Positions 1 to 18,364 of a DNA stretch of 58,252 bases are shown one piece after another; within the stretch, counting starts at the first letter, position 1, and the number at the start of each line of letters is the position of its first letter. Source of the DNA: an uncultured Fusobacteriaceae bacterium (lineage in GTDB: Bacteria > Fusobacteriota > Fusobacteriia > Fusobacteriales > Fusobacteriaceae); assembly GCA_947038515.1 (NCBI GenBank), contig CAMQWJ010000009.1, positions 1-58,252 on the forward strand, written 5' to 3'. The notes under the pieces were generated by a model. That model saw only the letters and a program-made list of their open reading frames with translations. It ran no database searches and was not told the origin of the DNA. Position numbers and translations under genes: made by a program.

Positions 1-54
1 AGCAACGCCCTTCTAAGGCGTGGGCCAGGAGTTCGAATCTCTTCAGACACGCCA
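1..54 (+). tRNA. tRNA-Arg(TCT), 5' end missing
   Basis: The 3' part of a tRNA: a 5-bp anticodon stem closes the 7-base loop CTTCTAA (anticodon TCT), followed by a T-arm with GTTCGAATC and an encoded CCA at 52-54. The acceptor 5' strand and D-arm lie outside the window. First member of a ten-tRNA array. Confidence 0.9.
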
Positions 55-66
55 TATATATTCCGC

Positions 67-143
67 GGATCTATAGCTCAGTTGGTTAGAGCACTCGGCT
101 CATAACCGAGTGGTCGTTGGTTCGACTCCAACTAGATCCACCA
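67..143 (+). tRNA. tRNA-Met(CAT), elongator, copy 1
   Basis: A complete 77-nt cloverleaf with anticodon loop CTCATAA, 7-bp acceptor stem and encoded CCA. It differs from the copy at 779-855 at only a few positions, with compensating changes in the acceptor stem. It lacks the three-GC-pair anticodon stem of the initiator. An isoleucine tRNA read through lysidine also carries CAT, but the body looks like elongator Met. Confidence 0.9.
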
Positions 144-146
144 TCA

Positions 147-221
147 GCCCCGTTCGTTCAGTGGTTAGGACAACAGATTTTCACTCTGTAAACAGGGGTT
201 CAATTCCCCTACGGGGTACCA
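147..221 (+). tRNA. tRNA-Glu(TTC)
   Basis: 75-nt cloverleaf. The acceptor stem GCCCCGT pairs with ACGGGGT, the anticodon loop TTTTCAC gives TTC, and CCA is encoded at 219-221. Only three bases separate it from the preceding tRNA, so the array is probably one processed transcript. Confidence 0.92.
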
Positions 222-237
222 AATTATATAAGTAGTT

Positions 238-321
238 GGAGGGTTATCCTAATTGGTAAGGAATCGGTCTTGAAAACCGACGTCGTATGACTTCAGAGTT
301 CGAGTCTCTGGCTCTCCGCCA
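238..321 (+). tRNA. tRNA-Ser(TGA)
   Basis: 84-nt class II tRNA with a long variable arm, anticodon loop CTTGAAA (TGA) and encoded CCA. The acceptor stem starts GGAGGGT and pairs with GCTCTCC through two wobble pairs. Confidence 0.9.
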
Positions 322-327
322 TTATAT

Positions 328-403
328 GCCCAGATAGCTCAGTCGGTAGAGCAGGAGACTGAAAATCTCCGTGTCCGTGGTTCGATTCCGCGTCTGGGCA
401 CCA
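328..403 (+). tRNA. tRNA-Phe(GAA)
   Basis: 76-nt cloverleaf. The acceptor stem GCCCAGA pairs with TCTGGGC, the anticodon loop is CTGAAAA (GAA), and CCA is encoded at 401-403. Confidence 0.93.
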
Positions 404-415
404 CTTATAGAAAAA

Positions 416-491
416 GGTCGCATAGCTCAGTTGGGAGAGCACCTGCCTTACAAGCAGGGGGTCACAGGTTCAAGTCCTGTTGTGACCACCA
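416..491 (+). tRNA. tRNA-Val(TAC)
   Basis: 76-nt cloverleaf with anticodon stem CCTGC/GCAGG, loop CTTACAA (TAC) and encoded CCA. Confidence 0.93.
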
Positions 492-501
492 TTTAAAATT
501 T

Positions 502-578
502 GGGGGTGTAGCTCAGTTGGTTAGAGCGCATGCCTGTCACGCATGAGGTCGCGAGTTCGAGTCTCGTCACTCCCGCCA
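502..578 (+). tRNA. tRNA-Asp(GTC)
   Basis: 77-nt cloverleaf with anticodon stem CATGC/GCATG, loop CTGTCAC (GTC), D-arm GCTCAGTTGGTTAGAGC and encoded CCA. Confidence 0.93.
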
Positions 579-601
579 TTAGTATTAACAAAAGAATAAA
601 C

Positions 602-689
602 GCCTGGGTGGCGGAATAGGTAGACGCACAGGACTTAAAATCCTGAGGTATCTGATACCGTGCCGGTTCGATTCCGGCCCCAGGCACCA
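602..689 (+). tRNA. tRNA-Leu(TAA)
   Basis: 88-nt class II tRNA. The acceptor stem GCCTGGG pairs with CCCAGGC, the anticodon loop is CTTAAAA (TAA), there is a long variable arm, and CCA is encoded. Confidence 0.93.
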
Positions 690-692
690 CAT

Positions 693-768
<76 letters not shown>

Positions 769-778
769 AATAAAAAAA

Positions 779-855
779 GGATCCATAGCTCAGTTGGTTA
801 GAGCACTCGGCTCATAACCGAGTGGTCGTTGGTTCGATTCCAACTGGATCCACCA
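779..855 (+). tRNA. tRNA-Met(CAT), elongator, copy 2
   Basis: 77-nt near-duplicate of the tRNA at 67-143; the acceptor stem GGATCCA pairs perfectly with TGGATCC. Last gene of the array, followed by an intrinsic terminator. Confidence 0.92.
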
Positions 856-2728: not shown

Positions 2729-3076
2729 ATGGTGAGAAAATTAAAAACAGGAAAAGCACAAGGAAATCAAGCAGATATTTTACAACAAGCAAAAGCAATG
2801 CAAACTGAGATGCTAGTAGTTCAAGAGCAATTAAGAACTAAAGAGCTAGAATCTTCAGTAGGTGGAGGGGCTGTTGTAGTAAAAGTGAATGGACAAAAAG
2901 AAATATTAACTGTAAAACTTTCTGATGAAATAGTAAAAGAAGCTGCGACAGATAAAGAAATGTTAGAAGACCTAATTGTATCTGCAGTAACTGAAGCACT
3001 TAGAAAAGCTGAAGAGTTATCAGAAAAAGAAATGGAAAAAATAACTGGTGGTGTAAATATTCCGGGATTATTTTAA
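2729..3076 (+). CDS. ybaB: Nucleoid-associated protein, YbaB/EbfC family
   Basis: Small dimeric DNA-binding protein of the YbaB/EbfC family. 115 residues from this start; the central ELESSVGGGAVVVKVNGQKE and the C-terminal KITGGVNIPGLF are family signatures. The start is ATG 2729 because AAGGAG lies six bases before it. An in-frame ATG at 2714 would sit just ahead of that site and is rejected. In many bacteria ybaB lies next to recR or dnaX, but here it stands alone between a promoter and a terminator. The N-terminal stretch is rich in Gln, Ala and Lys, as in relatives. Confidence 0.92.
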   Translation: MVRKLKTGKAQGNQADILQQAKAMQTEMLVVQEQLRTKELESSVGGGAVVVKVNGQKEILTVKLSDEIVKEAATDKEMLEDLIVSAVTEALRKAEELSEKEMEKITGGVNIPGLF

Positions 3077-3095
3077 AGTAAAATAGGAAGCAAGA

Positions 3096-3141
3096 AAAAA
3101 TAAAATCTCTCTAGATTCACAGAGGCGATTTTATTTTTTTT
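3096..3141 (+). terminator. Intrinsic terminator after ybaB
   Basis: ATAAAATC (3100-3107) pairs with GATTTTAT (3127-3134), with an inner CTCT/AGAG helix, followed by a T tract. Confidence 0.8.
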
Positions 3142-3212
3142 ATGAAAACAGAAGAAAAATATGATATAATAATAATAAGATAAAGTTGAAAATGATATGA
3201 AGGAGAAGAGCG

Positions 3213-3854
3213 ATGAAAGAAGAAAAAAGATATAGGATATTTGGCTTACTTCTTTACTATCTCATGAGAACAATCCAAAGAACAATAAAGATAACACAAA
3301 TTTTTCCAGAAAAATTTGATAAGGACGGAAATTTTGTTTTAGCTTTTTGGCATAATAAATTGGTAATGACTCTCTTAGGAACAGATTTTATAAAAAAAAA
3401 GGTGGGGTTAGCGAGTCCTACCAAGGATGGAGAGTTAATTTCAGTCCCCTTGGAAAAATATGGAACTACTATGATAAGAGGGTCTTCAGATAAAAATTCT
3501 GTGAGGAGTCTGCTACAGTTAATTAAGGAAGTAAAGAAAGGTGCTACAGTGGGAACCCCTGTAGATGGACCAAAGGGACCTATCTTTCAAGTCAAACATG
3601 GAATGATATATATATCTCAAAAGAGTGGAGTGCCAATAGTTCCCATGGGGGTAGCTTATTCTAAAAAATGGATTTTTAATAAGACTTGGGATAAATTTCA
3701 ACTTCCAAAACCTTTTTCAAGAGGTGTTGTTATTTTTGGAACTCCTTATAATGTAGAATTAGATGCTGACATGGAATTGGAGTGTTTGAAATTAAAGAAA
3801 AAAATAGAAGAATTGGACGAAAGAGCAGAAAAAATACTTGAAAATAAAATATGA
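3213..3854 (+). CDS. DUF374 lysophospholipid/lipid A-type acyltransferase
   Basis: 213-residue member of the DUF374 branch of membrane-associated acyltransferases. It carries the FWHNKLVM block (the H-N version of the acyltransferase active-site motif), the LASPTKDGELI stretch, and TPVDGPKGPIFQVKHG, which is diagnostic of the family. Homologues in Gram-negative bacteria sit in envelope or lipopolysaccharide gene groups; the acceptor lipid cannot be told from sequence. The hydrophobic N-terminus probably holds it at the inner membrane. AAGGAG precedes ATG 3213, in a leader (GATATGAAGGAG) repeated almost exactly before ybaB. It may be cotranscribed with metG 59 bases downstream. Confidence 0.85.
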   Translation: MKEEKRYRIFGLLLYYLMRTIQRTIKITQIFPEKFDKDGNFVLAFWHNKLVMTLLGTDFIKKKVGLASPTKDGELISVPLEKYGTTMIRGSSDKNSVRSLLQLIKEVKKGATVGTPVDGPKGPIFQVKHGMIYISQKSGVPIVPMGVAYSKKWIFNKTWDKFQLPKPFSRGVVIFGTPYNVELDADMELECLKLKKKIEELDERAEKILENKI

Positions 3855-3872
3855 ATAATAAAATATGAATAT

Positions 3873-3913
3873 AAGGAGGAGATGACACTAAAAGATTGTG
3901 TCATCTAAAAAAA
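3873..3913 (+). promoter_or_regulatory. metG ribosome binding site with a spacer hairpin
   Basis: AAGGAGG (3873-3879) is followed directly by a perfect 9-bp hairpin: AGATGACAC (3880-3888) pairs with GTGTCATCT (3898-3906) around a 9-nt loop. Then come seven A residues and the metG ATG at 3914. The linear spacing of 34 bases is too long for initiation, but folding the hairpin leaves 7. The hairpin has no T tract, so it is not a terminator. Confidence 0.65.
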
Positions 3914-5836
3914 ATGGAAAAAAACTTTTATGTAACGACACCAATATATTATGTAAACGGGGCTCCCCATGTTGGAAGTGCCTATACCACAATAGCTGCA
4001 GATGTAATAGCAAGATATAAAAAAACACAAGGGTATAATGTATACTCTTTAACAGGAACAGATGAACATGGACAGAAAGTAGAAGAAACTGCCCTATTAA
4101 AAGGATTAACACCTCAAGCTTGGACAGATTTAATGGCTCCTAAGTTTCAAGAAATGTGGAAATTATTAAATATTGAAAATGATGATTTTATAAGAACAAC
4201 AGAGCCACGTCATAAAAGTGCAGTTGTGAAAATCTTATCAACTGTTTATGAAAAAGGTGATATTTATTGTGGCGAATATGAAGGTAAATATTGTGTAAGT
4301 TGTGAAAATTTTGTTCCTGAAAATCAAATTGTTGAAAATAAATTTTGTCCTGACTGTGGTAAAGAATTAAGAGTGGTAAAAGAAGAATCTTATTTTTTTA
4401 AAATGAGTAAATACCAAGATGAATTATTGAAACATATAGATGAAAATCCTAATTTTATTTTACCACAATCTAGAAGAAATGAGGTAATAAACTTTATTAA
4501 ACAAGGATTACAAGATTTATCTATTTCAAGAAACACTTTTACTTGGGGTATTCCCATTGAGTTTGCACCAGGTCACATAACATATGTATGGTTTGATGCA
4601 TTAACAAATTATTTAACAGCAGTAGGTTATGAAAATAATCTTGAAAAATTTGATGAATTTTGGAATAATTCAGAAGTTGTTCATTTATTGGGAAAAGATA
4701 TAGTAAGATTTCATGCTATAATATGGCCTTGTATGCTACTTTCTGCAGGAATAAAATTACCAGATAAAATTGTTGCTCATGGTTGGTGGACCTCAGAAGG
4801 TGAGAAAATGTCTAAATCAAAAAATAATGTAGTTGATCCAATAGAGGAAGTAAAAAAATATGGAGTGGATGCATTTAGATTCTGTTTAATGAGAGAAGTA
4901 AATTTTGGAAATGATGGAGATTATTCAACTAAAAATATTATTAGTCGAATAAATAATGATTTGGCAAATGATTTAGGAAATCTTCTGAATAGAACTTTAG
5001 GAATGTATAGCAAATATTTTGATGGTGTCATTGTTGAAGGAAAAAATGAAGACGAGTTTACAAAAAATTTATATATTTTGTTTGAAGAAACTTTGATTGT
5101 TGTAGAGCGTTCAATGGAAAAATTGGAATTTTCAAAATCTATGGAAGCTATTTGGAAATTCATATCTCGTATGAATAAATATATAGATGAAACAATGCCT
5201 TGGTTACTTGCAAAAGAAGAAAGTGAAAAAGTTAAACTTGGTGGTGTTATGAATACTTTAGTAGAGGGACTGTACAAGGTTGCTGTATTGATATATCCAT
5301 ATATGCCAGTTAAATCTCAAAATATTTGGGATCAACTAGGAGTTGAAAAATCTATAAAAAATTCTTTAATAGAGGATATAAAAGAATGGAATCATTTTAA
5401 AAAAGGTGATAAACTTGGTGTAGCAACAGTATTATTCCCAAGACTAGAAGTTCTTGTTGAAGAAGCAAAAAATGAATTAGAGATAAATGAAAATTTAAAA
5501 ATAGAAAATCCGACAACTATAGAAAAATTTGGAGAAACAAAGATTGAAGTTGTAGAAATAATATCAGTTGAAAAAGTTGAAGGAGCAGACAGATTACTTA
5601 AGTTTAAAGTTAAAACAGGAAAAGAGATTCGACAAATAGTTTCTGGAATAGCTAAAAATTATCCTGAATTTAAGTTGTTAGAAGGGAAAAAAGTTTTAGC
5701 AGTTTTAAATTTACCTCCTGTAACTCTTCTTGGAATATTATCTCAAGGAATGATATTATCAACAGAAGATAAAAAAAATGGAATAAAATTGGTAGAAATT
5801 TCTCAAGAAATAAAAGTTGGAGCAAAACTAAAATAG
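3914..5836 (+). CDS. metG: Methionyl-tRNA synthetase
   Basis: Charges tRNA-Met and initiator tRNA with methionine. 640 residues from this start. The class I signature appears as HVGS (19-22) and KMSKS (298-302). A zinc knuckle CVSCENF...CPDCGKE lies in the connective domain, and a C-terminal tRNA-binding (Arc1p-like/EMAP) domain beginning near KIEVVEIISVEKVEGADRLL gives the dimer form. The start is taken as ATG 3914, where similarity to the family begins (MEKNFYVTTPIYYVNGAPH). A TTG at 3896 lies in the loop of the upstream hairpin and is less likely. The unusual ribosome binding site is described separately. galU follows 21 bases later. Confidence 0.95.
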   Translation: MEKNFYVTTPIYYVNGAPHVGSAYTTIAADVIARYKKTQGYNVYSLTGTDEHGQKVEETALLKGLTPQAWTDLMAPKFQEMWKLLNIENDDFIRTTEPRHKSAVVKILSTVYEKGDIYCGEYEGKYCVSCENFVPENQIVENKFCPDCGKELRVVKEESYFFKMSKYQDELLKHIDENPNFILPQSRRNEVINFIKQGLQDLSISRNTFTWGIPIEFAPGHITYVWFDALTNYLTAVGYENNLEKFDEFWNNSEVVHLLGKDIVRFHAIIWPCMLLSAGIKLPDKIVAHGWWTSEGEKMSKSKNNVVDPIEEVKKYGVDAFRFCLMREVNFGNDGDYSTKNIISRINNDLANDLGNLLNRTLGMYSKYFDGVIVEGKNEDEFTKNLYILFEETLIVVERSMEKLEFSKSMEAIWKFISRMNKYIDETMPWLLAKEESEKVKLGGVMNTLVEGLYKVAVLIYPYMPVKSQNIWDQLGVEKSIKNSLIEDIKEWNHFKKGDKLGVATVLFPRLEVLVEEAKNELEINENLKIENPTTIEKFGETKIEVVEIISVEKVEGADRLLKFKVKTGKEIRQIVSGIAKNYPEFKLLEGKKVLAVLNLPPVTLLGILSQGMILSTEDKKNGIKLVEISQEIKVGAKLK

Positions 5837-18183: not shown

Positions 18184-18220
18184 TGGTATACTGAAAAAGT
18201 TGGATAAATAATAAAAAATA

Positions 18221-18342
18221 GATCCAAGCCCAAGACCGTAGGTAGCCTAGCTATAAAACCTACCGAGGTTGGAAGTGAAAAATTCTTAGATATATTTGAG
18301 AATATATGAAGCCTCCGATTCTCACAAGGAGTCGGAGGCTTT
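18221..18342 (+). promoter_or_regulatory. L10 leader (rplJ autoregulatory RNA) with attenuator-like hairpin
   Basis: Contains the CCAAGCCCAAGACCGTAGGT sequence typical of L10 leaders, with GTAGGT (18238-18243) pairing with ACCTAC (18258-18263) and an outer CCAA/TTGG closure. Further on, AAGCCTCCGA (18309-18318) pairs perfectly with TCGGAGGCTT (18332-18341), 23 bases before rplJ. The T tract after it is short (TTT), so it may be an attenuator rather than a full terminator. Confidence 0.8.
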
Positions 18343-18364
18343 AAAAAAAGGGAGGTGAAATAAA

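Follow-up and report, generated by a model that had tools for sequence, protein, structure and literature searches.

Palindromes between Shine-Dalgarno and start codon at metG and other genes of a Fusobacteriaceae genome

How could metG be translated from a Shine-Dalgarno (SD) sequence that lies 34 nt upstream of its ATG? The locus that raises this question lies in a window of 58,252 nt (the whole stretch of DNA analyzed) from a Fusobacteriaceae genome of 1.78 Mb, here called G000. Hairpins that bridge SD and AUG are textbook knowledge from two genes of phage T4. An initial annotation had proposed such a bridge at metG and, beyond it, a switch in which opening of the stem would turn off translation of methionyl-tRNA synthetase (MetRS).

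Anatomy of the metG leader

Direct reading bore out the proposed layout, with AAGGAGG 34 bases from the metG ATG and a perfect 9-bp hairpin (3880-3906) beginning right after it. The features of the region are as follows.

3213..3854, + strand: 213-aa gene preceding metG in the presumed operon (from the sequence); by eye, we take its product to be putatively lysophospholipid acyltransferase-like (DUF374-type)
3844..3871, + strand: 14-bp tandem duplication ATAAAATATGAATA, directly 5' of the metG SD
3873..3879, + strand: SD AAGGAGG, read directly in the sequence
3880..3888, + strand: 5' arm of the hairpin, AGATGACAC (sequence and predicted fold)
3882..3908, + strand: possible upstream ORF MTLKDCVI*, 8 codons, its ATG 2 nt past GGAGG
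3889..3897, + strand: 9-nt hairpin loop, TAAAAGATT (sequence and predicted fold)
3898..3906, + strand: 3' arm of the hairpin, GTGTCATCT (sequence and predicted fold)
3907..3913, + strand: seven-A spacer AAAAAAA (sequence)
3914..5836, + strand: metG, methionyl-tRNA synthetase, 640 aa, start ATG 3914 (from aligned N-termini of relatives)

The full leader reads TAAGGAGG, AGATGACAC-TAAAAGATT-GTGTCATCT, AAAAAAA, ATG; without the hairpin it is AAGGAGG-A7-ATG. Structure prediction for the 44-mer returns precisely this 9-bp hairpin (-12.9 kcal/mol, z -5.2), an energy matched by 0 of 200 dinucleotide shuffles, and the same stem is predicted when longer context is folded. Both the SD and the AUG are unpaired in this prediction, with their distance reduced from 34 nt (linear) to 7 nt (folded). 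As perfect hairpins are not rare in the window (12 of at least 9 bp vs 5.15 expected from shuffles), what sets this one apart is that it fills the gap from SD to start exactly.

In normal genes of G000, GGAGG stands 3-13 nt from the start, mostly 4-9 nt. Measured against this range, the linear 34 nt is exceptional and the folded 7 nt unremarkable, so that the seven A residues left after folding do provide the good spacing claimed for them. None of the SD-like tetramers AGGA, GGAG and GAGG was found at a normal distance 5' of ATG 3914. The MetRS N-termini of relatives align as M(S/T/E)KNFYVTTPIYYVNG. Because they share M-x-KNFYVTTPIYYVNG, and the only in-frame alternative start, TTG 3896, has no counterpart among them, this alignment identifies ATG 3914 as the right start; the TTG, which the initial annotation had named as evidence that could overturn its reading, gains no backing. 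The upstream ORF is probably untranslated, since an SD spacing of 2 nt is absent among normal genes.

Several further features were observed. The upstream gene ends inside the first copy of the 14-bp duplication, which holds its stop codon. At least 10 tRNA genes, three of them with anticodon CAT, cluster at window positions 1-855, about 3 kb 5' of metG, and a ribosomal protein L10 leader (Rfam RF00557) lies at 18211-18353. In two relatives (L141 and L143, of G017 and G019), MetRS carries at its N-terminus a short extension that contains cysteine (MCRDCNCGKEDKKE..., MCREC...).

The check for stem conservation proposed along with the switch was run, and it spoke against conservation among the relatives compared. 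In G002, the nearest relative compared (same genus, MetRS 72% identical), the metG leader is AAGGAG, 8 nt, ATG, with no stem, and nearly all of about 57 Fusobacteriaceae metG leaders have ordinary SD-ATG spacing. Long gaps that fold as SD-hairpin-ATG were found at metG in the distant G050 and G051 (genus g12) as well, with hairpins of -13.9 and -19.1 kcal/mol and unrelated stems. Since relatives are mostly ordinary and these stems unrelated, the metG hairpin is, judged from the leaders compared, lineage-specific, with separate origins at least three times at this gene. The relatives' lack of the stem also precluded a covariation test at metG.

Recurrence at other gene starts

To place metG among its neighbors, G000 was read as sequence stretches covering 48% of the genome, and relatives were represented by one genome per species. 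Gene calls were crude, structures are thermodynamic predictions, and names of bridged genes were assigned by eye from N-termini.

A comparison in which selection did not require a hairpin covered 703 G000 genes and 678 genes in four relatives. A distal SD was defined as a strong SD 16-60 nt 5' of the ATG of a gene without a normally spaced one. Normally spaced SDs precede 558 of the 703 G000 genes; a strong distal SD occurs in 18 of the remaining 145 (about 20% of the 703). The spacer folds as a hairpin in 15 of these 18 genes, and in 13 the fold is better than that of 95% or more of dinucleotide shuffles, such that distal SDs with no hairpin are rare (3/18). The four relatives had 3 distal SDs and 0 hairpins. 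Bridged starts thus number 15/703 in G000 vs 0/678 (Fisher p 4e-5).

Searches by form gave more examples. Scanning first 458 and then 849 kb for starts composed of SD, perfect hairpin, 6-10 nt and ATG yielded hldD, thiD, fabH, kdsC, genes for a dipeptidase, an amidohydrolase and a binding protein, and others. The pattern AGGAGGNNATGATA...TATCAT...ATG matched 17 times in 61 family genomes (8 in G000), while the reversed pattern, used as control, matched 0 times in the same 61. All 17 matches lie directly 5' of an open reading frame, mostly of a recognizable gene, including rsmH, dnaB and aroC in G000 and secD (G001), coaBC (G056) and a ferredoxin gene (G028-G030) elsewhere. MAFFT alignment of the leaders was poor; a covariance model (R1) of the bare architecture was built from random architecture probes. 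It found 14 matches in G000, every one a bridged start, and added purB, an M18-type peptidase gene, a cobI-like gene and psd. By the same procedure G000 had more matches than any other genome, and matches in the others were a mix of real bridged starts and many ordinary SDs. An outgroup scan (508 kb, mostly Firmicutes loci) gave one dubious match among 410 genes.

All searches together bring the bridged starts known in G000 to about 22. Their linear spacings are 27-44 nt and their folded spacings 7-14 nt, mostly 7-12; one candidate, C13:7544, is doubtful, with a folded distance of 2. Bridged genes retain strong, intact SDs and have no common pathway. Recurrence at this many real gene starts strengthens the bridging idea. 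Because at least 20 other G000 genes share the arrangement with different hairpins, the T4 device looks recurrent on this chromosome. Searches of the available literature for bacterial chromosomal examples of hairpin-bridged ribosome binding sites (RBSs) found none.

Origin of the hairpins

Relatives carry ordinary RBSs at their orthologues of hldD, purB, rsmH, thiD and fabH, the relatives including the same-genus G001/G002 for hldD, purB and rsmH. When the hairpin is taken out of any of the metG, fabH, hldD and amidohydrolase leaders, what remains is an ordinary RBS. At coaBC, the palindrome of G055/G056 (L401, L404) lies exactly between the AAAGGAG and the ATATATC-ATG of G053/G054/G058 (L402, L403, L405), so that, on comparison of these close relatives, a palindrome appears to have been inserted cleanly into an existing RBS. 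At rnhA in Leptotrichiaceae (L372-L382), some species have acquired, further downstream, the reverse complement of a segment that lies upstream, and the hairpin is absent in G076, G079, G080 and G074. We did not use the rnhA leader as support for bridging, since its SD falls within the end of the fabG-like gene before it and SD and start are closer together in the linear sequence. For the ferredoxin gene of G028-G030, neither SD nor stem varies among the three species, the proteins of which share 75-79% identity with the query, although conservation of the hairpin above its flanks is not significant.

These comparisons suggest that the palindromes arose as insertions, e.g. by template switching, a known source of perfect hairpins (PMC8794818). 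A self-folding insertion keeps the folded SD distance, and its tolerance would thereby be explained. By the same logic, ordinary folded spacing is not independent evidence of function, as a random insertion would preserve the original spacing anyway. Strict hairpins of at least 9 bp number 5 in SD-ATG gaps vs 75 elsewhere in intergenic DNA, many of the latter terminators, a count that does not by itself demand selection.

Our proposal for metG is that an ordinary RBS, AAGGAGG-A7-ATG, would have received a 27-nt perfect palindrome between SD and start in the G000 lineage. Once transcribed, the palindrome would fold into a hairpin in the metG mRNA, and the ribosome would see the SD about 7 nt from the AUG across it, as a hairpin-bridged ('accommodated') RBS. 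G000 would then have at least 20 such starts, metG among them, with scattered cases elsewhere in Fusobacteriota. Formation of the hairpin in vivo and use of the distant SD are what we infer from this arrangement. On balance, we think it likely that lineage-specific palindromic insertions are tolerated, and probably used, as hairpin-bridged RBSs, and that they are not a metG-specific switch.

Alternative readings and known systems

A more ambitious reading makes hairpin-bridged RBSs an evolved, functional second mode of initiation, genome-wide and serving essential genes, perhaps through a UAUGAUA/UAUCAUA stem with an AUG 2 nt past the SD that is recognized by the ribosome or a protein. We regard this as rather unlikely.

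Also unlikely, in our judgment, is that the palindromes are relics of template switching that survive where they are nearly harmless, initiation being A-rich and SD-independent or coupled to the upstream gene. The seven A residues before the metG ATG, followed by A-rich first codons, would suit such initiation, which is possible given that about 20% of G000 genes (145/703) have no SD at normal spacing. The frequency of gap hairpins does not clearly exceed what random intergenic birth of palindromes would give, template switching does produce perfect hairpins (PMC8794818), and insertion preserves spacing by construction. Against neutrality, the bridged genes keep intact, strong SDs, few distal SDs (3/18) lack a hairpin, and the ferredoxin gene has held its SD and stem across three species.

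Temperature, an RNA-binding protein or an antisense RNA might instead open the stem and so turn metG translation off. The geometry is compatible with this, and three lineages (G000, G050 and G051) have a bridged metG, more than expected from the low rate elsewhere; yet the stem is not conserved even within the genus, and bridged genes have no pathway in common. Moreover, the stem sequence is unique in the genome and therefore does not represent a regulon motif. No Rfam match to a curated RNA family (riboswitch, T-box) was found near 3873-3916, and the metG hairpin showed no sign of a ligand, an antisense partner or sequestration as in a thermometer. An RNA thermometer or RBS-sequestering hairpin would have the SD or the AUG paired, and here both are unpaired. 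As nearly all relatives compared lack the metG hairpin, the conserved, metG-specific switch of the initial annotation is unsupported, and we consider regulation of this kind improbable.

More doubtful still is an upstream minigene, in which the SD would direct initiation at the 5'-arm AUG and ribosomes would get to the main gene by termination and reinitiation. At metG the 8-codon ORF ends 5 nt before the ATG, and an ATG exactly 2 nt past GGAGG occurs in 7 of 19 unselected bridged G000 starts (about 0.4 expected). However, such an ATG is missing from about half of the bridged genes, and the stop varies from codon 2 to an out-of-frame overlap with the main gene (in rsmH the frame is shared), which together make the minigene very unlikely; a spacing of 2 is, besides, absent among normal G000 genes. 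This ATG usually lies in UAUGAUA/UAUCAUA (TATGATA/TATCATA) stems, which are preferred in bridged G000 leaders, and a base-pairing or protein reason for its position is possible.

An element acting at the DNA level (operator palindrome, transcription terminator or mobile repeat) can be dismissed almost outright: the metG feature is an inverted repeat, but it is a single copy in the genome, seven A stand where a terminator would have its U-run, no terminator was called there, and ATGATA/TATCAT palindromes outside RBSs are no commoner than control hexamers. We found no look-alikes of the metG hairpin in the genome at up to 3 mismatches, which together with the lack of enrichment outside RBSs sets aside a mobile repeat or regulon motif. 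An intrinsic terminator was rejected as the leader does not combine a GC-rich stem with a U-run and no call fell in 3000-4000. A promoter search at the metG site returned nothing.

If hairpin-bridged RBSs are indeed in use, about 20 chromosomal housekeeping cases would provide natural material for studying how the 30S subunit copes with a stem that separates SD from AUG. Bridged starts illustrate the tolerance of RBSs for self-folding insertions, and start-site annotation limited to 5-13 nt upstream will misjudge bridged genes.

Three known systems bear comparison. Like the template-switch hairpins of PMC8794818, those described here are perfect inverted repeats, each apparently a single insertion in one lineage, whereas their origin is deduced here from distant orthologues and from the coaBC and rnhA comparisons. 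RNA thermometers and RBS-sequestering hairpins also place a hairpin in the translation initiation region; unlike in these, the metG SD and AUG lie outside the stem, and its opening would separate rather than free them. The closest parallel, that with T4 genes 38 and 25, held up as a real precedent: there a hairpin shortens the SD-AUG distance from 22 to 5 and from 27 to 11 nt, destabilizing mutations in the stems lower translation, and the stems are lineage-restricted, with distant relatives lacking them (PMC3014915). As at metG, a strong SD is too far away, a hairpin restores a short distance (34 to 7 at metG), and relatives do without it. The present cases differ in concerning chromosomal housekeeping genes, in numbering at least 20 with unrelated stems, and in being predicted from sequence. 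With a linear SD-AUG distance that is too long (34 vs 3-13 nt), a stable predicted structure that leaves SD and AUG free at a folded distance of 7, and no alternative SD at a normal distance, the metG leader has, as far as sequence can tell, every anatomical feature of the T4 38/25 kind.
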